From contig NZ_CP006951.1 in NCBI RefSeq assembly GCF_000830885.1, positions 1,054,001 through 1,118,000 of the forward strand: DNA of 64,000 nucleotides, read 5' to 3'. The notes beneath the pieces were generated by a model, which was not told where the DNA came from, made no database searches, and saw nothing but the letters and a program-made list of their open reading frames with translations. Below are positions 9,763 through 46,569 of this stretch, one piece after another. This stretch comes from Dehalococcoides mccartyi CG5. Lineage in GTDB: Bacteria; Chloroflexota; Dehalococcoidia; Dehalococcoidales; Dehalococcoidaceae. The translations under genes and the position numbers were made by a program. Each line of letters begins with the position of its first letter. Positions within the stretch are counted from its first letter, which is position 1.

Positions 9763-9791
9763 TTGTGCCCCTTTTGGGGCTGTGATATTAT
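9763..9791 (+). promoter_or_regulatory. Promoter of ybeY with a hairpin in the spacer; leaderless start predicted
   Basis: TTGTGC (9763-9768) and TATTAT (9786-9791) are 17 nt apart. The perfect palindrome GCCCCTTTTGGGGC (9767-9780) fills most of the spacer. Only 8 nt separate the -10 box from ATG 9800, so transcription would begin at or next to the start codon. Confidence 0.55.
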
Positions 9792-9799
9792 TTAGACAT

Positions 9800-10282
9800 A
9801 TGGAAATAAATATAATAGTTAAACCGCCTTTTAAAAAACTGGTATCCGCCCAATTTCTAAAAAAAATAGCCTCTGAAACCCTTAAAGCCCAGGCCGCAGA
9901 CCCAAGTTCGGAACTGGGTATTGTTATTACCGGGCAGGAAGAAATAAAAGAACTCAACTGTAAATACCGCCAGCTTGATGAACCTACAGATGTGCTTTCG
10001 TTTTATATGCTGGAGGAAAACCCCGAAAACCTGACCGCACCGGATGATTTTCCCACCCCTCCTGATGAAGCCACCCATTTGGGAGAAGTGATAATCTCTT
10101 ATCCGCAGGCGGAGCTTCAGGCTGGTGCTGCCGGCCACAGCGTCAACCATGAACTAGCCTTTTTGCTGATTCACGGGGTACTCCACCTGCTGGGGTATGA
10201 CCACCATGAAACCGCCGCCGAAGCAGTTATGAAATCCCATCAGGATATAGCCATGAAACATATACGGGAGATACTGAAATGA
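9800..10282 (+). CDS. ybeY: Endoribonuclease YbeY (rRNA maturation factor)
   Basis: 160 residues. The zinc-binding signature is HGVLHLLGYDHHE (H-x3-H-x5-H) near the C-terminus, and the LNCKYRQLDEPTDVLSF segment is also typical of the family. YbeY takes part in 16S rRNA 3' end processing and ribosome quality control in the cytoplasm. I use ATG 9800 (MEINIIVK); a GTG at 9782 lies inside the predicted promoter. No SD is present. The stop overlaps the next gene's start (ATGA). Confidence 0.92.
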   Translation: MEINIIVKPPFKKLVSAQFLKKIASETLKAQAADPSSELGIVITGQEEIKELNCKYRQLDEPTDVLSFYMLEENPENLTAPDDFPTPPDEATHLGEVIISYPQAELQAGAAGHSVNHELAFLLIHGVLHLLGYDHHETAAEAVMKSHQDIAMKHIREILK

Positions 10283-10852: not shown

Positions 10853-11785
10853 CTAGCCTCTGGCTACCCCTACTATTTCCCTTATGCTCTTTAACCCCTC
10901 AGCTTTGGCATAGGCTTCCAGCCCTTCAAGTATATCCATGGGGGCGCGCGGGTTGACCAAATTGGCAGTGCCTATCTGAATTGCAGTTGCCCCGGCCATC
11001 AGGAACTCCAGAGCATCTTCAGCATTCATAATGCCTCCCCCCCCGATAACCGGTACGTTTACCGCACCCGCTACCTGATATACCATGCTGATAGCCACCG
11101 GTTTTATAGCCGGGCCTGAGAGCCCTCCGGTATGGTTACCCAACACGGGACGCCGTTTTTTGATATCTATGCGCATACCCCGAAGGGTGTTTATAAGTGA
11201 AATCGCATCTGCCCCGGCATCTGCCACCGCCTTAGCCAGTTCGGTAATGCTGCTGGTATTGGGGGTAAGTTTTACGATAAGAGGCAGGGTAGTAGCATTC
11301 CTGACTACGTCAGTCACTCTGGCGGCAGATTCGGGAGAAGAGCCAAACTCTATACAGCCGCACTTTACATTGGGACAGCTGATATTTACCTCTATACCGC
11401 TTACCCCGGGCACTTTGTCCAAACGGCGGGCAAGTTCGGCATAGTCTTCTATACTCTCGGCGGCAATGTTTACTATCACAGGCACATCCCAGGTATACCA
11501 CTGGGGTGCTTTGTCACGGATAACCGCCTCTACCCCCATATTTTGCAGTCCTATAGAATTCAGCATGCCGTTAGGGGTTTCGGCTATGCGCGGCTGGGGG
11601 TTTCCCTCCCGCGGTTTCAGGGTGGTAGCCTTGCAGACAATGGCACCCAGACGGTTGCGGTCAAACAGGTGGGGGTATTCGTCACCATAGCCGAAAGTTC
11701 CGGAAGCCGCCATAACAGGGTTTGAAAGCCTGAGCTGGCGGGGATTGTAAGGGGCGATGTCTACATTTAAATTAAGTTCAGCCAT
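10853..11785 (-). CDS. pyrD: Dihydroorotate dehydrogenase, class 1B catalytic subunit
   Basis: About 310 residues with a TIM-barrel FMN enzyme pattern: [15 protein letters not shown] near the N-terminus, the catalytic-base motif [10 protein letters not shown] (Cys as in class 1), [11 protein letters not shown], and the FMN-phosphate region [20 protein letters not shown]. It oxidises dihydroorotate to orotate in pyrimidine synthesis. Class 1B enzymes usually work with a PyrK electron-transfer subunit, which is not in this window. I place the start at ATG 11785. The frame extends upstream, but a TATAAT lies only 9 nt before this ATG. Confidence 0.92.
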
Positions 11786-11794
11786 ACGCCCAAG

Positions 11795-11824
11795 ATTATA
11801 AGGCTTGGAGACGGCAGAACACAA
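11795..11824 (-). promoter_or_regulatory. Promoter of pyrD, leaderless start predicted
   Basis: On the minus strand TTGTGT (11819-11824) and TATAAT (11795-11800) are 18 nt apart. The -10 box ends 9 nt before ATG 11785 and no SD fits between them. Confidence 0.6.
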
Positions 11825-26602: not shown

Positions 26603-29314
26603 TTACTCCATATCTCCCCAGTTTGCTCCGGACTTAAGCTCAACCTTAAGCGGTATTTCAAAGGTGACTGCACCTGACATAGTTTCCATAAGCAAAGCAC
26701 TCATACGCTTAAGCTCTGCGTCAGGCACTTCAAATATAAGCTCGTCATGCACCTGAAGTAGCAGGCGGCTTTCCAGCTTTTCTTCTTTCAGTTTTTCATC
26801 CAGCCTGACCATAGCCAGCTTGATAATATCCGCAGACGTACCCTGAACAGGCATATTTATGGCCATACGTTCGGCCGATTCACGCAAAATCCGGTTGGGC
26901 GAATTGATTTCAGGTATATACCGGCGTCTTCCCAGCAGGGTCTCAACGTACCCGTTAGTCCGAGCCTGATGCTTAATCTCCGCAAAGTAAATAGCTACCC
27001 GCGGGTATTTTTCAAAATATGCCTTGATAAATTTGTCGGCCTCTGCCAGTGAAAGCTCGGTAGCCTGTTCCAACCCGTAGCTGCTCATGCCATATATCAC
27101 TCCGAAATTCACCGTTTTAGCCAGACGGCGTTGTTCCTTTGTCACTTCAGACGGGAGTATATTCAGCAATCTGGCAGCGGTAGCAGTGTGGATATCCTGG
27201 TCCTTAAGAAAAGCCTCTATCAGGGCAGGGTCTCCGGAAAGATGGGCCAGCACCCGCAGGTCTATCTGGGAGTAATCTCCAGCCAGCATTACGGTACCCT
27301 TCGGGGCAATAAATGCCCGCCGTATTTCTCTGCCCATTTCACCCCTGACGGGTATATTTTGCAGATTCGGTTCACTGGAAGACAATCTGCCGGTAGCCGT
27401 TCTGGTCTGGTTGAAACTGGTATGCAGGCGACGGGTATGCGGATTCACCATACGCGGCAGAGTATCCAGATAGGTAGATTTCAGTTTGACCAGCATACGA
27501 TATTCAAGTATCAGGTCTACAATCCGGTGTTCACCCTTCAGTTCATCCAGTACCTCTGCCCCGGTGGAATAACCGGTCTTGGTTTTTTTGATAACCGGCA
27601 GTTTCAGTTCGTCAAAAAGTATCCGCCCCAGCTGCTGGGGAGAACCTATGTTGAAGCTGTGTCCCGCTTGGGCATATATGGCTTCTTCCAGTTTAAATAT
27701 CTGCCCGCCCACCTTTTCGGCCATACCTTTGAGCAAATCGGTATCCAGCATAATACCGCTACGCTCCATACCCAGTAATATAGGTACCAAAGGCATTTCA
27801 ACATTGACAAACAAATCTATCAGCTTGGTTTCGGCAAGCTGGGCGGCAAACAGACCCTTGAGGCGGAAGGTGTAATCAGCCACCAACTGGGCGGCTTCTG
27901 AAAGCTCTGATGCACTGAAGCTCTTTTTCTTGCCGTTCTGAGTAAGTATGTTTTCAACATCAGCAATTTCCACCCCGAAGTGTTCAAATACCAAGTCTTT
28001 TATACCCAGATTTTTTTCACCCAGCAGGTGGGCAGAAAGCATGGTATCAAAGTCCAGTCCCTGTATTTCCTGCCCGGCTGAAGCCAGCAGATTCATGAGG
28101 TACTTGGCATTATGAGCGGTCTTGGTTATATTTTTATTCGTAAGCAGGGCAATCAAACCCGGGTGACCTTCGGAAACAAACATCTGCCCATCCGAAGCAC
28201 TACCGATAAATTCTGCAGAAATAAAATAGGCTTCGCCCTCTGCCGGTGAAATTGCCAGCGCAGTCAGGCGGGCATCTATAGCTTCTTCGGAAGTGCCCGA
28301 AACTGCCAGTGCCAGCTCTTTGGTTTCCGTGAACCGCTTCACGATGCTGTCTAGATTCTGCCCGTTGGCTACAATATAGCGGGTTTCAACCTTTTGGGGG
28401 GTGTTAAACATATCTGTCATACCGCCGCCAGGATTTTCACCGCCTGGCAGGCGGTTAATCAGCCTGAAAAACTCCAGTTCACGAAAAAGGTCTACCACCT
28501 TTTGGCGGTTATAGTGTTCCGATCTACATTCCTGAATACTGAAATCCAGCGGCAGATCACACACAATCGTAGTTAATATTTTACTCTGGCGGGCTACTTC
28601 GGCGTTGTCTGCCAGTTTCTTTTGGAGACCGGGCGGGCTTATTTTATCCAGATTTTTATATATATCTTCTATGCCGCCGTATTCTTCTATAAGTTTCTGG
28701 GCAGTTTTCGGGCCTATGCCGGGTACTCCGGGTATGTTGTCAGACGGATCACCCATAAGGGCTTTGTAATCTGCGACATGCTCCGGCCCTAAACCGTACT
28801 TTGCCCTTACTGCCGCCTCGTCATACAGACTGGTATTGGAAAAAGAACCGGCCGGGCCGGGATACAGAATACGAATATCCGGACTGACCAACTGCATGGA
28901 GTCTGCGTCTCCGGAGGCTATTATAACCTCCATGCCTTCGGCGGCGGCTCTGGTAGCCAGTGTGCCCAGCACATCATCTGCCTCAAAACCGCTCTGTTCG
29001 TATACAGGCATATTGAAAGCATCCACAATCTGGCGTACCCGTCCCAGCTGGCTGACAAGCTCGTCAGGCATGGGCGGACGTTGGGCTTTGTAGTCCTTGA
29101 ACATCTCATGCCTGAAGGTAGGGCCTTTTTTATCAAAGGATATAGCGTAACAATCCGGTTTCAGGTCGGTTAAGACTTTTATAAGTATAGAGGCAAAACC
29201 AAAGGCCGCCCCCACCACTTCACCTGTTTTGCGGACTGTAAGAGGTGGCAGTACATGATATGCCCGATGAACCAGATTTGTGCCGTCAAAAAGGACAATT
29301 ACAGGTTTACTCAT
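26603..29314 (-). CDS. polA: DNA polymerase I
   Basis: About 903 residues. The N-terminal 5' nuclease (1-290) has VLFDGTNLVHRAYH and the H3TH region with GDPSDNIPGVPGIGPKTA. The C-terminal polymerase domain has RRAFIAPKGTVMLAGDYSQI (motif A), RRLAKTVNFGVIYGMSS (motif B) and LLLQVHDELIFEV (motif C). The middle 3'-5' exonuclease-like domain lacks the catalytic acids: the first site reads LALAVSGT and the second AHNAKYLMNLL. So it should lack proofreading, as in Taq or Bacillus Pol I. I chose ATG 29314; an in-frame ATG at 29341 lies upstream of the -10 box. Confidence 0.95.
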   Translation of the reverse strand: MSKPVIVLFDGTNLVHRAYHVLPPLTVRKTGEVVGAAFGFASILIKVLTDLKPDCYAISFDKKGPTFRHEMFKDYKAQRPPMPDELVSQLGRVRQIVDAFNMPVYEQSGFEADDVLGTLATRAAAEGMEVIIASGDADSMQLVSPDIRILYPGPAGSFSNTSLYDEAAVRAKYGLGPEHVADYKALMGDPSDNIPGVPGIGPKTAQKLIEEYGGIEDIYKNLDKISPPGLQKKLADNAEVARQSKILTTIVCDLPLDFSIQECRSEHYNRQKVVDLFRELEFFRLINRLPGGENPGGGMTDMFNTPQKVETRYIVANGQNLDSIVKRFTETKELALAVSGTSEEAIDARLTALAISPAEGEAYFISAEFIGSASDGQMFVSEGHPGLIALLTNKNITKTAHNAKYLMNLLASAGQEIQGLDFDTMLSAHLLGEKNLGIKDLVFEHFGVEIADVENILTQNGKKKSFSASELSEAAQLVADYTFRLKGLFAAQLAETKLIDLFVNVEMPLVPILLGMERSGIMLDTDLLKGMAEKVGGQIFKLEEAIYAQAGHSFNIGSPQQLGRILFDELKLPVIKKTKTGYSTGAEVLDELKGEHRIVDLILEYRMLVKLKSTYLDTLPRMVNPHTRRLHTSFNQTRTATGRLSSSEPNLQNIPVRGEMGREIRRAFIAPKGTVMLAGDYSQIDLRVLAHLSGDPALIEAFLKDQDIHTATAARLLNILPSEVTKEQRRLAKTVNFGVIYGMSSYGLEQATELSLAEADKFIKAYFEKYPRVAIYFAEIKHQARTNGYVETLLGRRRYIPEINSPNRILRESAERMAINMPVQGTSADIIKLAMVRLDEKLKEEKLESRLLLQVHDELIFEVPDAELKRMSALLMETMSGAVTFEIPLKVELKSGANWGDME

Positions 29315-29320
29315 GAACAC

Positions 29321-29346
29321 ATTATAGCAGATGAACCGCAAAGAGG
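29321..29346 (-). promoter_or_regulatory. Promoter of polA, leaderless start predicted
   Basis: On the minus strand the extended -10 TGC-TATAAT (29321-29326) ends 6 nt before ATG 29314, so RNA would begin at the start codon itself. The -35 region is a weak CTGACC-like match about 19 nt upstream. Confidence 0.6.
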
Positions 29347-35088: not shown

Positions 35089-36168
35089 TTAAGTTGCCTG
35101 TTTTTTATCCTCAGCAAAAGACTTCTCCAGCTCTTCAAAGAGCTGCTTCTGTTTCCGGCTAAGTTTCTCAGGGGTAACTACATTCAAGTGTACCATTTCA
35201 TCACCGCTGCCAAAGCGATTCAAATGGGGAATGCCCTTGCCTTTCAACACAAAGTACTTGCCGTTTTGACTGCCTGACGGGATTTTCAGCTTGTGTTCGG
35301 TATTAAGCCCCGGCACATTTACTTCAGTACCCAAAGCCGCCTGGGCAAAATTTATCTCAAGTTCGTAGATAACATCATCACCGTCACGTTTGAAATCCGC
35401 ATGCTCGGCAATGCCTACGTTTATATACACATCTCCAGCAGAAGCGCCCTTGTCACCTACTCCGCCGTAGCCGTTAAGGCGTATTTGGTTTCCGTCTGCC
35501 ACACCGGCAGGTATTTTTACCTGAACAGTCCGCTTGACGTATTCTTTACCCGTACCCCGGCACTTGGTGCAGGGTTCGCCAATAATAGTCCCCTCACCAC
35601 GGCATTTGGGACAGGGAGTTACACTGGTAAAACGCCCGAAAACGCTTTTTTGCACCTGGTATACCTGTCCGGTACCGTTACAGCTGGTACATTTTACCGG
35701 CGAAGTGCCGGCTTTGGCACCTGTGCCGCTGCACTCGGTGCAATATTCAAGTCTTTCAGTGGTAATATCTTTTTCAACACCGGTTGCGGCTTCTTCAAGG
35801 CTTATCTTTATATCATAAGACATGTCAGGCCCGCGACGAGGACCGCGTTTGGCACCCTGGGTAGCACCGCCAAAGAAGGTTTCAAAGATACTGCCCAAAC
35901 CGCCAAAATCAAAGTTTTCAAAACCGCCCTGTCCGAAGGAATCCGCCCCGGCGCTGAAACCGAAACGGTCATAGGCCGCCCGTTTTTCAGGGTTGGAAAG
36001 AACCTCGTAGGCTTCGTTGACTTCTTTGAACTTGTCTGCCGCACCCTCTTCGTGATTACGGTCAGGGTGATGCTTCATAGCCATCTTGCGGAAGGCCTTT
36101 TTTATATCTTCGTCAGAAGCACTGCGTTCAAGACCCAATACTTCGTAATAATCTCTTTTATTAACCAT
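35089..36168 (-). CDS. dnaJ: Chaperone protein DnaJ
   Basis: 359 residues. The J domain (1-70) has HPD (KHHPDRN). A Gly/Phe-rich linker, four zinc repeats ([32 protein letters not shown]) and the C-terminal peptide-binding domains follow, so it is a class A DnaJ. It works with DnaK and GrpE. It is last in the hrcA-grpE-dnaK-dnaJ order. A hairpin lies between dnaK and dnaJ and a TATAAT 8 nt before the ATG, so it may have its own leaderless transcript. Confidence 0.95.
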
Positions 36169-36176
36169 AATTAATC

Positions 36177-36182
36177 ATTATA
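36177..36182 (-). promoter_or_regulatory. Possible internal -10 box of dnaJ
   Basis: TATAAT on the minus strand ends 8 nt before ATG 36168 and no SD lies between. The -35 region is weak. Confidence 0.4.
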
Positions 36183-36262: not shown

Positions 36263-36287
36263 GGGAGGGGGCATCACACCCCCTCCC
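36263..36287 (-). terminator. Hairpin between dnaK and dnaJ
   Basis: GGGAGGGGG-7 nt-CCCCCTCCC forms a 9-bp GC-rich stem after the dnaK stop. On the minus strand it is followed by GCCTTTATTTGG, a weak T tract, so it may be a partial terminator or an RNA-processing/stability element. Confidence 0.55.
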
Positions 36288-38878: not shown

Positions 38879-39916
38879 CTATTCATCTTTGTCAACAGGC
38901 GCTTTGCCGTAAAGTTCGGCTACCAGAGTACTCATAACCAGAGACAAATAACTGACCGCCGACAATGCCCTTTCGTAGGCCATGCGGGTAGGTCCTATAA
39001 CCCCGATAGTGCCCACAGCTTCATCAGGTATGCCGTACTGGCTGACTATCAGACTGTAATCACGTATTTCGGCAGAGGCATTTTCCTGCCCTATGTATAC
39101 CTGTACACCCCGGTTAAAAGGCATGGGCGGTACAATCATCTTGGAAAGTTTCTTCTGCTCCAGCAGCTGCATTATCTCCTGAGCTCTCTGGTTCTGGTGA
39201 AATTCGGGCTGTTCCAGCATATAATGCAGCCCGTCAAAAAAGGGCTCACGGCTTTCCTGCTCATCTTCACCCCGCATCATCTTGACCAGACTGTCCTTGA
39301 CCTTCAGTTCATCATGGTTCAGACCAAGCGGTTTCTGATCTATCTGGAAACGGGTCAGACCATCATATGCGTCATTTAAGCGGTTTGATATAAGCGTAAG
39401 CTCAGGCTGGGAAACAACATTCTCAAAGTTTACAAGCTGCTGTTTTACCTTGGCTCCCCGAAGTATCAGGACTACCAGCACCAGATTATCCTGCAGGCTG
39501 ACCAGCTCTATATGATGCACTTTGCCCTGGGTCTGGCGGGGCATGGTAACAACTGCCATACTCTGTACACGCTGGGAAAGCACAGCTACTGTCAGATTAA
39601 GCCATTCCTCCATCTCTTTTTCTACCTGATGAAAAAGATGGCGGATAAGAAACTTGTCATTGGTAGGCAGTTCCACATCTTTAAGGGATTCTACGTAATA
39701 GCGGTATCCCTTATCAGCCGGAATGCTGCCGGCAGAGTGATGGGGACGAAGGATATAACCCTCAATCTCCAGCCGTACCACTTCGTTCCGTATGGTGGCT
39801 GAACAAATGTCCAAACCGCAATCTTCCAGTATGGAAGATGACGAAACCGGTACTGCTTTGGTTATATACTGCCTTACTATAGAACGCAGTATTATCTCTG
39901 CCCGTGATGTTAGCAC
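38879..39916 (-). CDS. hrcA: Heat-inducible transcription repressor HrcA
   Basis: 345 residues. The N-terminal winged helix (ILRSIVRQYITKAVPVSS...ATIRNEVVRLE) is followed by the HrcA GAF-like dimerisation region with IGPTRMAYERALSAV near the C-terminus. It represses this operon through the CIRCE element just upstream. The start is GTG (39914-39916), preceded by GAGG at 8 nt. This GTG lies inside an extra copy of the CIRCE half-site, so HrcA binding might also interfere at the start site. Confidence 0.94.
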   Translation of the reverse strand: MLTSRAEIILRSIVRQYITKAVPVSSSSILEDCGLDICSATIRNEVVRLEIEGYILRPHHSAGSIPADKGYRYYVESLKDVELPTNDKFLIRHLFHQVEKEMEEWLNLTVAVLSQRVQSMAVVTMPRQTQGKVHHIELVSLQDNLVLVVLILRGAKVKQQLVNFENVVSQPELTLISNRLNDAYDGLTRFQIDQKPLGLNHDELKVKDSLVKMMRGEDEQESREPFFDGLHYMLEQPEFHQNQRAQEIMQLLEQKKLSKMIVPPMPFNRGVQVYIGQENASAEIRDYSLIVSQYGIPDEAVGTIGVIGPTRMAYERALSAVSYLSLVMSTLVAELYGKAPVDKDE

Positions 39917-39956
39917 TCTTGCTACCTCGTTAGCACTCTATTAGCCCGTTTGCTAA
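39910..39956 (-). promoter_or_regulatory. CIRCE operator plus an additional half-site
   Basis: On the plus strand TTAGCACTC (39930-39938), 9 nt, GTTTGCTAA (39948-39956): the CIRCE layout with one perfect and one 7-of-9 arm. A third arm, TTAGCACTC (39910-39918), lies 11 nt further toward the gene and overlaps the hrcA start codon. Confidence 0.88.
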
Positions 39957-39965
39957 TACAGGTAT

Positions 39966-39994
39966 AATTTAGCATGACTGCCAACTACTGTCAA
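39966..39994 (-). promoter_or_regulatory. Promoter of the hrcA operon
   Basis: On the minus strand TTGACA (39989-39994), a 17-nt spacer and TAAATT (39966-39971). The CIRCE element begins about 9 nt after the -10 box, close to +1. Confidence 0.8.
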
Positions 39995-40044: not shown

Positions 40045-40073
40045 TTGACCCTCTGAAGGGGGTCTGATATAAT
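40045..40073 (+). promoter_or_regulatory. Promoter of the metallo-hydrolase gene, leaderless start predicted
   Basis: TTGACC (40045-40050), a 17-nt spacer and TGA-TATAAT (40068-40073). The spacer region carries GACCC (40047-40051) and GGGTC (40060-40064) as inverted arms. The ATG is 8 nt after the -10 box and there is no SD. Confidence 0.7.
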
Positions 40074-40081
40074 TCACCCAT

Positions 40082-40714
40082 ATGGAAATTAAATGGTTAG
40101 GTCACTCGTGCTTTCGCCTTAAAGGCAAAAATACTACTATAATTACTGACCCGTTCCCCCCGAATTTGGGGTATGCGATGGGCAAACAGAGTGCTGAGGT
40201 AATTACCGTCAGCCATGCTCATCCCAATCATTCGTTTACTTCGGCTATTGATGGCAATCCCCACATTGTAAGCGGCCCCGGTGAATATGAAATCGGAGAT
40301 GTTATCATCCTGGGTCTTTCCACCTTTCATGATGACTCCAAGGGCAGCGAGCGGGGTAAAAACACCATTTACCAGATGGAGATAGATGACCTGTCCATAT
40401 GCCATCTGGGGGACATTGGCCAGGGTCTGACTGACAACCAGATTGAAGAGCTGGGACGGGTGGATATACTTCTTCTGCCGGTTGGCGGGGGCAATACCAT
40501 CAGCCCGGGCAAAGCCGCCGAGATAATGCGCAAGCTGGAACCAGCTGTTGTTATTCCCATGCACTTCCAAAGTGATTTATCAACCAGTTCCCTTTTGCCT
40601 ATAGGCCAGTTTCTCAAGGAAATAGGTATAAGCAGTCTTGAACCCCAATCAAAGCTGAATATAACCAGAGGCAATTTGCCTGTTACCACCCAGGTTATGT
40701 TACTGCAGCCCTAA
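40082..40714 (+). CDS. Metallo-beta-lactamase-fold hydrolase (UlaG/Lactamase_B_3-like)
   Basis: 210 residues. MEIKWLGHSCF opens the fold, followed by ITDPFPP, the metal motif SHAHPNHSF, GPGEYEIGDV, ICHLGDIGQGL with a metal-binding Asp, and VVIPMHFQSD with the last His. In the family the first motif is normally HxHxDH; here the Asp is Asn. The substrate is unknown. It is divergent from hrcA and has a strong promoter. Confidence 0.82.
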   Translation: MEIKWLGHSCFRLKGKNTTIITDPFPPNLGYAMGKQSAEVITVSHAHPNHSFTSAIDGNPHIVSGPGEYEIGDVIILGLSTFHDDSKGSERGKNTIYQMEIDDLSICHLGDIGQGLTDNQIEELGRVDILLLPVGGGNTISPGKAAEIMRKLEPAVVIPMHFQSDLSTSSLLPIGQFLKEIGISSLEPQSKLNITRGNLPVTTQVMLLQP

Positions 40715-43335: not shown

Positions 43336-46300
43336 TTAGACTACGCGGCGAGTGCGGACAATCAGGACGATTACGGCGAGAGTCAGTATAGCACCGACAG
43401 CCACAATCAACCAGATATAGACAGGAGTTTCAGCCTGAGGTACGGTCAAAGTGATAGCCGGAGGATTATTGACCTCTACCGGGGCTGCATCAGCCTTAAC
43501 GGTGGTAAAGACGGCCGGGAACCATTCACTGGTGCTGTTGGCAGTATTGATGCGAACTCTCCAGTAATAGCTGGTTGAGTTGGTCAAAGTGCCGTCATAG
43601 GCCCAGTAATTGGTGGTCAGGCTCTTGGTAGCCAAAACCTTGGTAGCATCAGCGAAGGTAGGATCGGTGCTGAGTATCAGGTCATAGCTGACAGCAGTAG
43701 CAACTGAATCCCATGCAAACACGGGTTTAATGGGGATATTGATAGCGCCATTGGTAGGCATCAGGTTAACAGTGTAGTCGGGACGATCAGGCTGGGTGGA
43801 GACTGAAGCAGTACCCACGAAGCTCATGACCGGATCAACAGCCCAGACGCTTACCTGATACACAGTATCAACATCAAGATCATTAATCTTAAAGCTGGTT
43901 CCGACAGTGGTACCATCGGAAGTAAAGGCAGATGTGGTCATATAAGCAACTTTAGCACCGGTAGCAGCATCTGTGATGTATACATAGTACATTACTTCAA
44001 TGTTGCTATTGTCAACATTCAAGGCATCCCAAGTTACAGTCAAGGATGTGGTGGTGATCTTGGTTATCTGAACATTGGCAACAGGTACTGCCATCTTGTC
44101 AGTGTAAACATACAGTTCGGCACCAAAGATACCGTAAAGCATGTTAGCACCGGGGGCGGCAATACCAATCAGTTTAGTGCCTACTGCAGTACCAGGGGTA
44201 GCGACAGAACCAGCATAGCTGGTAGTGCCAACCATGGTAAAGCGAGAAAGACCATCGGCAACGGCATTAGCGTCCAGAACATAGAGTACGCTACCACCAG
44301 AAGCAATGCCGGAGAAGATACCTACGCCGTTAACAACAGCGGAGGTAGCAGCCCAGTCAAAGTCGGTAACGGGAGTAGCAGTGCCCAGTTCTTTCCAAGC
44401 GGGAGTGGTAGCGGCAAAGTCATACTTGAATGCGCCACCGTCGCTACCGGTCAGGTAGACAACGCTGTTGCTGCCATTCTGGAAAGTTACCAGAGATGTT
44501 GCAGAAACGGTAGGAGCAGCGGCAGAAGGAGTGCTCCAGGTAACGCCGCCATCAATGGATTTGGAAACCTTGCCGAGAGAACCGGTGGCTACTAATACAG
44601 AACCATCAGTTGAAACAGCAAAGGAGGTAACAATACCAACAGCACAGGGGCGGCCAAACCAGAGAACGCCATTGGTGCTGGTCTGGTAAACTACATTAGC
44701 ACCACCAACCAAGATGGTGTTGGCATTGGAAACAAACCAAGAAGAAATAAGAGCAGCACCGTCAACAGTGGTAATGTTGCTTACCTGAGCGGTGAAGGTC
44801 TGGCCGTTATCCAGTGAGCGCCAGATCATAGTACCGCCGAGGGAAGCTACAAATACTGCATCACCAGCGGGTGAAACAGCAACATCAATGTCGCCATCTT
44901 CGCCAACCATGGAGGTTGAGAAGACACGTTCGTAAACACCACCGGACAGACGCCAGACACTCTGTTCAACATAGTCATAGGTGACTACAAACAGGTTGCC
45001 GGCAATGTTTGCAACTTCGTTGATAGCCTGGCGCATCATAGAAATGGTATTCCATGTTTTGCCAAAGTCAGCAGTGTAAGAAACACCGCAGTCCCAACCG
45101 CCGGTACCAGCAAGGGCTTTACCGGAGGTGGCGAAGTCAGCCAAAGCCAAAACGGTTACATCCTCATCAAACCAGCTATGAGAACCGGTAGGGGCTTTGC
45201 TGGTCTTGGTGAAGGTAAGGCCGTCGGCAGAATACCAAGTTTTGGGTTTCCAATCTGAGGTATTGGTGTAACCACCGATAATCAGCTTGGCAGTGCCGAC
45301 GCCGCCGGCGCCGTCAATATCAGAGACTTCGGTTTCGGTGTCAAGGCCGCTGACGTTAAGGTCAATGGTCTTGGTGCTGTTACCATACCACAGGTAGACA
45401 TCACCCTGATCATACATAGTGGCCAAGGCCAGCCAGGCCTGGAATTTGCCGGAGGTCAGGCTGGAGCTGAAATCAGAGGGCAGCCAGAGTTCGGCATGGT
45501 AAACACCAGAGATGGAAATATCGTTGCCCTGCATTACTTCTGCATCTTTGCAGGTAGCAGGCTGGTTCCACTGATTGCCAAAGTATTTGGCGGTAATATA
45601 GGTAGCTTCAGAACCATCTGTAGTGTCTTCGGCTACAGCAATAATACCCTGCTTGGTGGCAAAGTCAGTGGGGTCTACAACTACGTCCCAGACATTACAA
45701 CTATCCCAAGCATCATCACGCTGACCAATGACATCAAGGTCAGTCCAGGGCATACCAAAGGCGGTTTCCTGGCACATATATACGCCGTTAATACCAACGC
45801 CGCCAAAGGTGGCGGTGCCAGCAAAGACGTATTTGTTAGCGCCGGCATAACCGACATCCAAAGTTACAATATCACCATCAGGAATGGCGGTCACAAAATT
45901 GGAAGTTGCATAAGTGACAAGATTTGACAGCTTGTTCCAGGTTACACCACCGTCCTTGGTGGTATAAATTTCAGAACCGTCAGTGAAGTAAACTTCATTG
46001 GCGTTTACGCTGGAAGCACAGACATCAAAGATATAGTCACCATCAAGAACGGGGTTAGAACCGTCCCAGTTGCTGAAAACCATCTTCCAGGTGCGGCCGG
46101 CATCGGTTGACTTGAAGACGCGTACGAGAGTGTCGTCTCCATCATCATAAACAGCGGTCGCATAAACAGCGGTTTTGTCAGCATTCCATTCCAGAATACC
46201 GATGTCATAGAAACGCATGTCAGTGTCACTGACAACATAGCCGCCGGTGGCGCCGGAACCGGGCAGGGCGATCTTGCTCCAAGCCTGGTTGGCAGCAGCT

Positions 46301-46386
46301 ACGGGGGTAGCGACAGCGAACATGGACAGAACCATGGCAGCAGTCAGGACTACGCCCAGTACTTTACTTATTTTTGTCTTAAACAT
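43336..46386 (-). CDS. Putative S-layer protein with Asp-box (BNR) repeats
   Basis: About 1016 residues. The signal peptide (MFKTKISKVLGVV...TPVAA) leads into a long beta-propeller-like region with several Asp boxes (STDAGRTW, TKDGGVTW, TADFGKTW, SLDNGQTF, SIDGGVTW). Two fibronectin type III-like domains follow (TTTSLTVTWDAL and GAINIPIKPVFAWDS). The C-terminus is one membrane helix (IWLIVAVGAILTLAVIVLIV) and RTRRVV. The layout resembles the abundant BNR-repeat protein proposed as the S-layer of Dehalococcoides. ATG 46386 is chosen because it gives a proper signal peptide; a TTG at 46422 would add 12 residues. The mRNA has a ~150-nt leader. Confidence 0.85.
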   Translation of the reverse strand: MFKTKISKVLGVVLTAAMVLSMFAVATPVAAANQAWSKIALPGSGATGGYVVSDTDMRFYDIGILEWNADKTAVYATAVYDDGDDTLVRVFKSTDAGRTWKMVFSNWDGSNPVLDGDYIFDVCASSVNANEVYFTDGSEIYTTKDGGVTWNKLSNLVTYATSNFVTAIPDGDIVTLDVGYAGANKYVFAGTATFGGVGINGVYMCQETAFGMPWTDLDVIGQRDDAWDSCNVWDVVVDPTDFATKQGIIAVAEDTTDGSEATYITAKYFGNQWNQPATCKDAEVMQGNDISISGVYHAELWLPSDFSSSLTSGKFQAWLALATMYDQGDVYLWYGNSTKTIDLNVSGLDTETEVSDIDGAGGVGTAKLIIGGYTNTSDWKPKTWYSADGLTFTKTSKAPTGSHSWFDEDVTVLALADFATSGKALAGTGGWDCGVSYTADFGKTWNTISMMRQAINEVANIAGNLFVVTYDYVEQSVWRLSGGVYERVFSTSMVGEDGDIDVAVSPAGDAVFVASLGGTMIWRSLDNGQTFTAQVSNITTVDGAALISSWFVSNANTILVGGANVVYQTSTNGVLWFGRPCAVGIVTSFAVSTDGSVLVATGSLGKVSKSIDGGVTWSTPSAAAPTVSATSLVTFQNGSNSVVYLTGSDGGAFKYDFAATTPAWKELGTATPVTDFDWAATSAVVNGVGIFSGIASGGSVLYVLDANAVADGLSRFTMVGTTSYAGSVATPGTAVGTKLIGIAAPGANMLYGIFGAELYVYTDKMAVPVANVQITKITTTSLTVTWDALNVDNSNIEVMYYVYITDAATGAKVAYMTTSAFTSDGTTVGTSFKINDLDVDTVYQVSVWAVDPVMSFVGTASVSTQPDRPDYTVNLMPTNGAINIPIKPVFAWDSVATAVSYDLILSTDPTFADATKVLATKSLTTNYWAYDGTLTNSTSYYWRVRINTANSTSEWFPAVFTTVKADAAPVEVNNPPAITLTVPQAETPVYIWLIVAVGAILTLAVIVLIVRTRRVV

Positions 46387-46569
46387 CGACCTAAAAATTT
46401 CCTTTTTTATTATTTTATGCAAATGTCTTCATATTATATATGTATATATGAAGACCAAGAGTGGTCCAATTTCGCATCAATCAAAGACGCTTCCCCTTAC
46501 GGGTGCATACAAATTACACCACCACCTTTCATGGTTTAACCTATCTTATATAATAACACAGGCTGTCAA
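46387..46569 (-). promoter_or_regulatory. Promoter and long leader of the S-layer-like gene
   Basis: On the minus strand TTGACA (46564-46569) is followed by TATAAG/TAAGAT (about 46543-46550), with a short 13-15 nt spacer. The leader to ATG 46386 is about 150 nt and holds an AT-rich stem with arms CTTCATAT and ATATGAAG (within 46427-46453), a possible 5' stabiliser. Confidence 0.5.

Follow-up and report, generated by a model that had tools for sequence, protein, structure and literature searches.

The question raised by this locus is whether genes that carry a sigma-70-type -10 box directly ahead of their start codon are transcribed without a 5' leader, so that the RNA would begin at or just before the AUG. 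In the window analyzed here, a stretch of 64,000 nucleotides that is part of the single-contig genome (1,362,151 bases) of Dehalococcoides mccartyi CG5, the original prediction had named five such genes. All five boxes were located as TANNNT hexamers ending 8, 9, 6, 8, and 8 nt before the start codons of ybeY, pyrD, polA, dnaJ, and a metallo-hydrolase gene, respectively, that is, within the range of about 5 to 9 nt expected of such boxes, and the five gene identities were borne out by NCBIfam and Pfam. The accompanying remark that the remaining gap holds no Shine-Dalgarno (SD) sequence is correct but uninformative, since 6 to 9 nt leave no room for an SD sequence at a working distance. The observation itself is therefore confirmed, while its leaderless interpretation is partly supported by the comparisons presented below, with five good candidates, four of them very good. 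We consider it highly probable that these are sigma-70-type promoters set so that the RNA would begin at or a few nucleotides from the start codon, and that polA, pyrD, the metallo-hydrolase gene, ybeY, and probably dnaJ of Dehalococcoides are leaderless or nearly so, as a minority mode of initiation. The features concerned are the following.

40045..40073, + strand: metallo-hydrolase promoter, with a -35 box TTGACC (40045-40050), 17 nt, and an extended -10 element TGATATAAT with TATAAT at 40068-40073, separated from the ATG by 8 nt
40082..40714, + strand: metallo-hydrolase gene (beta-lactamase superfamily; PF13483, E 1.5e-53), predicted leaderless
11795..11800, - strand: pyrD -10 box TATAAT, 9 nt before the ATG
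10853..11785, - strand: pyrD (dihydroorotate dehydrogenase; NF005574, E 5.6e-151), predicted leaderless
9786..9791, + strand: ybeY -10 box TATTAT (TGATATTAT), 8 nt before the ATG
9800..10282, + strand: ybeY (rRNA maturation RNase; TIGR00043, E 5.2e-38), predicted to have no leader or one of a few nucleotides
29321..29329, - strand: polA extended -10 element TGCTATAAT, with TATAAT at 29326-29321 and 6 nt between it and the ATG
26603..29314, - strand: polA (DNA polymerase I; NF004397, TIGR00593; conserved start MSKP or MKKP), predicted leaderless
36177..36182, - strand: dnaJ -10 box TATAAT, 8 nt before the ATG, found within the family only in Dehalococcoides
35089..36168, - strand: dnaJ (TIGR02349), possibly leaderless

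The boxes were compared across the family, represented by 11 genomes from two genera, 3 of Dehalococcoides and 8 of a sister genus, which we take to be Dehalogenimonas; protein identity between the two genera is 46 to 68%. The spacing between box and start is conserved across the genera in four of the five genes (not in dnaJ), while the flanking DNA has diverged. The TGn motif of an extended -10 element is present at polA (40/40 genes), the metallo-hydrolase gene (11/11), and ybeY (7/11), and is not a feature of pyrD or dnaJ.

The most extensive comparison is that of polA, for which the upstream regions of 29 further genomes of the order were added to those of the family, giving 40 genomes from about 22 families; since the genomes were picked by protein score, they were not selected by promoter. 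All 11 family genomes carry TGnTATAAT with a gap of exactly 6 nt, and across the order the same element precedes the ATG or GTG without exception, with a gap of 6 nt in 37 genomes, 7 nt in 2, and 8 nt in 1. Relative to the aligned start, the start codon is displaced to -24, -9, or +3 nt in seven genomes, and the box has shifted along with it, the spacing still being 6 nt; two sister-genus polA genes begin 24 nt further upstream, and here the box is again found 6 nt before the new start. The base at -1 is a pyrimidine in 39 of the 40 genomes, and there is no conserved -35 box, the corresponding position holding little information. Of the 23 polA genes compared in the phylum outside the order, 22 lack such a box and the remaining match is weak; in one that belongs to the same class, an SD sequence is accompanied by a box lying about 27 nt upstream. 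Leaderless transcription of polA, or transcription with a leader of up to about 5 nt, is strongly supported by this conservation. It can be speculated, although we regard it as doubtful, that the leaderless state of polA is actively maintained across Dehalococcoidales, as the near-invariant TGCTATAAT-N6-AUG with no conserved -35 box might indicate, perhaps tying synthesis to a state of the ribosome that favors leaderless mRNAs.

The metallo-hydrolase promoter, given in the original prediction as TTGACC, 17 nt, and TATAAT, is present in that form, matching the consensus at 11 of 12 positions in addition to the TG. Its TGn and perfect TATAAT are kept in 11/11 family genomes, with a gap of 8 nt in Dehalococcoides and 6 nt in the sister genus, and the promoter block is conserved across the three Dehalococcoides genomes, whereas conservation does not extend to the DNA immediately upstream. 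No other in-frame start precedes the ATG, and the N-terminal MEIK(W/Y) aligns across the 11 genomes. For this gene, too, conservation provides strong support for a predicted transcript with no leader or one of up to about 5 nt. An inverted repeat, GACCC..GGGTC, occupies positions 40047-40064 in the promoter spacer and is likewise conserved in the three Dehalococcoides genomes; it could represent a putative operator between the -35 and -10 boxes.

On the other side of this intergenic region lies a divergent hrcA promoter on the - strand (TTGACA at 39994-39989, 17 nt, and TAAATT at 39971-39966), followed by a CIRCE-like element, TTAGCAAAC-N9-GAGTGCTAA, at 39956-39930 and a third half-site, GAGTGCTAA, at 39918-39910. 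This block (39910-39994) is largely conserved in the three Dehalococcoides genomes. A leaderless 8-codon open reading frame at 39974 was rejected as a candidate on the grounds of a frameshift in one relative (G002) and its overlap with the divergent hrcA promoter.

A perfect TATAAT precedes pyrD in 11/11 family genomes, with gaps of 6 to 9 nt, and in-frame start codons further upstream, at -42 and -39, do not occur in all relatives. The box is limited to the family and a few neighbors; elsewhere in the order, most families have an SD-led pyrD. At ybeY, a TATNAT box is found in 11/11 family genomes, with gaps of 8 to 11 nt, and all eight sister-genus genomes have a -35 box, CTGACA or CTGACC, at 17 nt. 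Judged by this conservation, leaderless transcription of pyrD (or a leader of up to about 5 nt) is strongly supported, and a leaderless or near-leaderless ybeY is well supported.

The gap lengths allow a variant of this explanation that is compatible with it, namely, that the RNA begins 2 to 5 nt upstream of the AUG, especially at ybeY and pyrD; we give it a sizeable chance, somewhat short of even. The usual distance from the -10 box to the transcription start point is 6 to 7 nt, compared with gaps of 9 to 11 nt at ybeY in the sister genus and of 9 nt at pyrD in Dehalococcoides, and these gaps fit a leader of 2 to 5 nt equally as well as none. On the other hand, the gap of 6 nt at polA and at the sister-genus metallo-hydrolase gene would place position +1 on the A of the AUG. 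The two cases would hardly differ in function, since review work (PMC9031893) describes initiation either right at the 5' end or very close to it.

The fifth gene, dnaJ, differs from the others. Its box is present in 3/3 Dehalococcoides genomes, whereas 8/8 sister-genus genomes have a GAGG-type SD sequence and an upstream AT-rich box instead; in Dehalococcoides the -35 box is poor, the TG is missing, and further upstream there is a second AT-rich box. The gap between dnaK and dnaJ contains a strong G+C-rich hairpin (36263-36287; GGGAGGGGGU-GUGAU-GCCCCCUCCC), followed by an only partial U run, which suggests a separate dnaJ transcript. Leaderless dnaJ is thus plausible as a lineage-restricted state, reflecting a mode of initiation that may have changed between the genera; a misleading box in Dehalococcoides is less likely.

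A second alternative, to which we attach very little probability, is that AT-rich hexamers occur near start codons by chance and that transcription really starts further upstream, producing an unrecognized leader. AT-rich intergenic DNA yields such matches easily, and the raw pattern is indeed uninformative: the window holds 7 copies of TATAATN{6,9}ATG compared with 2.9 in shuffles (4/100 shuffles reach 7), and TATAATN{5,9}ATG occurs 107 times in the whole genome compared with 98 for a reversed control, so that most raw matches must be regarded as chance. Raw genome-wide counting was therefore dropped as too noisy in favor of starts fixed by orthologues; first-ATG starts without homology were also dropped, as they blurred the box-distance peak. 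Gene starts were fixed via N-terminal conservation between orthologues, with upstream signals not used, genes were split into likely transcript heads and operon-internal genes, and boxes at 5 to 9 nt before the start were counted against 200 shuffles per genome. The statistics cover 704 kb (52%) of this genome, consisting of evenly spaced stretches and the window, and 800 kb of each of two sister-genus genomes.

At such starts, the proposed comparison with shuffled controls does reveal an excess. A box at 5 to 9 nt precedes 12/123 transcript-head genes in this genome (shuffle mean, 4.4; shuffle maximum, 10) and 19/163 and 13/143 in the sister-genus genomes (shuffle means, 5.2 and 2.7), and the observed count was reached by 0/200 shuffles in all three; close boxes are thus concentrated genome-wide beyond chance. 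Among operon-internal genes, the box was found in only 1/115 here and in 1/90 and 1/107 in the sister genus. Boxes before the comparatively fixed starts of transcript-head genes are bimodally distributed, with peaks at 6 to 9 nt and at about 24 to 35 nt. The box state is common to orthologues between the two sister-genus genomes (odds, 15.7; p 9e-7), and its contingency between this genome and the sister genus is weak (p 0.06 and 0.018); control windows at 26 to 32 nt likewise show box sharing between orthologues, as expected for leadered promoters. With E. coli as a control, 1/61 transcript-head genes was boxed, a comparison that is supportive only, since p is 0.06 versus this genome, and Thermus pTT27, intended as a positive control, gave no strict box among only 14 transcript-head genes. 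The box signal accordingly appears only at real gene starts and in conservation, and it is there that the chance explanation meets (i) a TATAAT without mismatch, held at a constant distance, in 40/40 polA genes and in 11/11 pyrD and metallo-hydrolase genes, with flanks otherwise diverged, and (ii) a box that shifts together with the start and a pyrimidine signature at -1.

The excess in this genome is nevertheless small, about 8 genes in 238 start-fixed genes, or about 3% of all genes and about 6% of transcript heads over shuffles. The view that leaderless transcripts are common in this genome did not hold: they would be a minority, below the share of at least 20% of genes that marks a leaderless-rich genome, and the window happens to be rich in candidates. 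SD-led leaders, with the box 24 to 35 nt upstream, constitute the predominant mode.

The signature just mentioned concerns the base at -1, which is a pyrimidine in 36/44 boxed starts compared with 334/697 others (p 8.5e-6); the bias at boxed starts is strongest at -1, and unboxed genes are without it. Transcription tends to begin at a purine with a pyrimidine before it, and the -1 pyrimidine therefore suggests that transcription starts at the A or G of the start codon. An atypical dipyrimidine signal ahead of start codons is reported for other phyla (PMC3160421). In this genome, an SD sequence of 4 or more nt is found at 3/12 boxed genes compared with 169/226 others, a scarcity that is partly forced because the box occupies the SD space. 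Genes outside the boxed set thus mostly have SD sequences, as the original prediction had stated, and since the anti-SD end of 16S rRNA (GGATCACCTCCTTT) is also present in the genome (stretch L022), both modes of initiation coexist, in line with the two peaks of box distance. That the AT-rich element is not a promoter but a signal for the translation of a leadered mRNA (e.g., a site for ribosomal protein S1) is the least probable of the readings considered. S1 sites have been invoked for AT-rich signals that precede non-SD genes (PMC5397173), but what is found here is a specific TGnTATAAT at fixed spacing, a -35 box is present in the metallo-hydrolase gene and ybeY, and the element is nearly absent from operon-internal genes.

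Two further starts were noted in passing. A pair of sister-genus orthologues (L114:3447-6293 and its orthologue in G004) has TATAAT 8 to 9 nt before a conserved TTG start and possibly represents a candidate leaderless UUG start. In the window, a palindrome-like ATATATACATATATAATATGAAGACAT at 46422 (- strand) lies before the TTG start of a 1028-codon open reading frame (43336-46422), with a box gap of 10 nt and an uncertain start.

From the conserved promoter placement, we infer the transcription start points and the mechanism of translation as follows: (i) RNA polymerase would start at, or a few nucleotides from, the start codon of the boxed genes; (ii) the mRNAs of polA, pyrD, the metallo-hydrolase gene, ybeY, and probably dnaJ in Dehalococcoides would have no leader or almost none; (iii) the ribosome, mainly as 70S by analogy with studied bacteria, would bind the 5'-terminal AUG directly; and (iv) the leaderless state would be inherited gene by gene in a genome using mainly SD-led leaders, appearing fixed for polA across the sampled order and for pyrD, ybeY, and the metallo-hydrolase gene across the family, and gained or lost between genera for dnaJ. 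In the bacteria studied so far, it is mainly 70S ribosomes that bind the 5'-terminal AUG of leaderless mRNAs, GUG being accepted in some (PMC9031893).

A literature search covering few subscription journals yielded no paper on gene-level conservation of leaderless starts, above all that of polA, and nothing usable on Dehalococcoides transcript starts. In the literature within reach, leaderless genes of Chloroflexota are represented by predicted genome percentages only, and the present analysis adds named, testable cases from organisms employed in bioremediation, among them one that is deeply conserved (polA, in about 22 families) and one lineage-specific switch (dnaJ). Annotation programs that rely on an SD sequence may place such starts wrongly, and polA offers an occasion to ask why a predicted leaderless start persists at this gene when most others in the genome lack one.

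With respect to known systems, 4/12 Chloroflexi genomes in the survey of Zheng et al. (2011; PMC3160421) had predicted leaderless genes, at 4.0 to 5.7% of genes, so that the general finding is a case of a known kind. Their TA-led genes share the TANNNT/TATAAT core about 12 nt before the start, the lack of an SD sequence, and the status of a gene minority, at a proportion close to the excess of about 3% found here. The available text of that survey, however, does not name the Chloroflexi genomes ("Dehalococc" is absent) and does not deal with how single genes, polA with its fixed promoter for instance, are conserved in the order. The leaderless transcriptomes of mycobacteria and Deinococcus have the same -10 box directly upstream of AUG or GUG, with SD-led genes alongside, but comprise 20 to 60% of genes (PMC9031893) compared with a few percent here. 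Finally, extended -10 sigma-70 promoters offer the same TGnTATAAT as polA and the metallo-hydrolase gene, polA having no conserved -35 box; what distinguishes the promoters described here is a placement that would leave no 5' leader.
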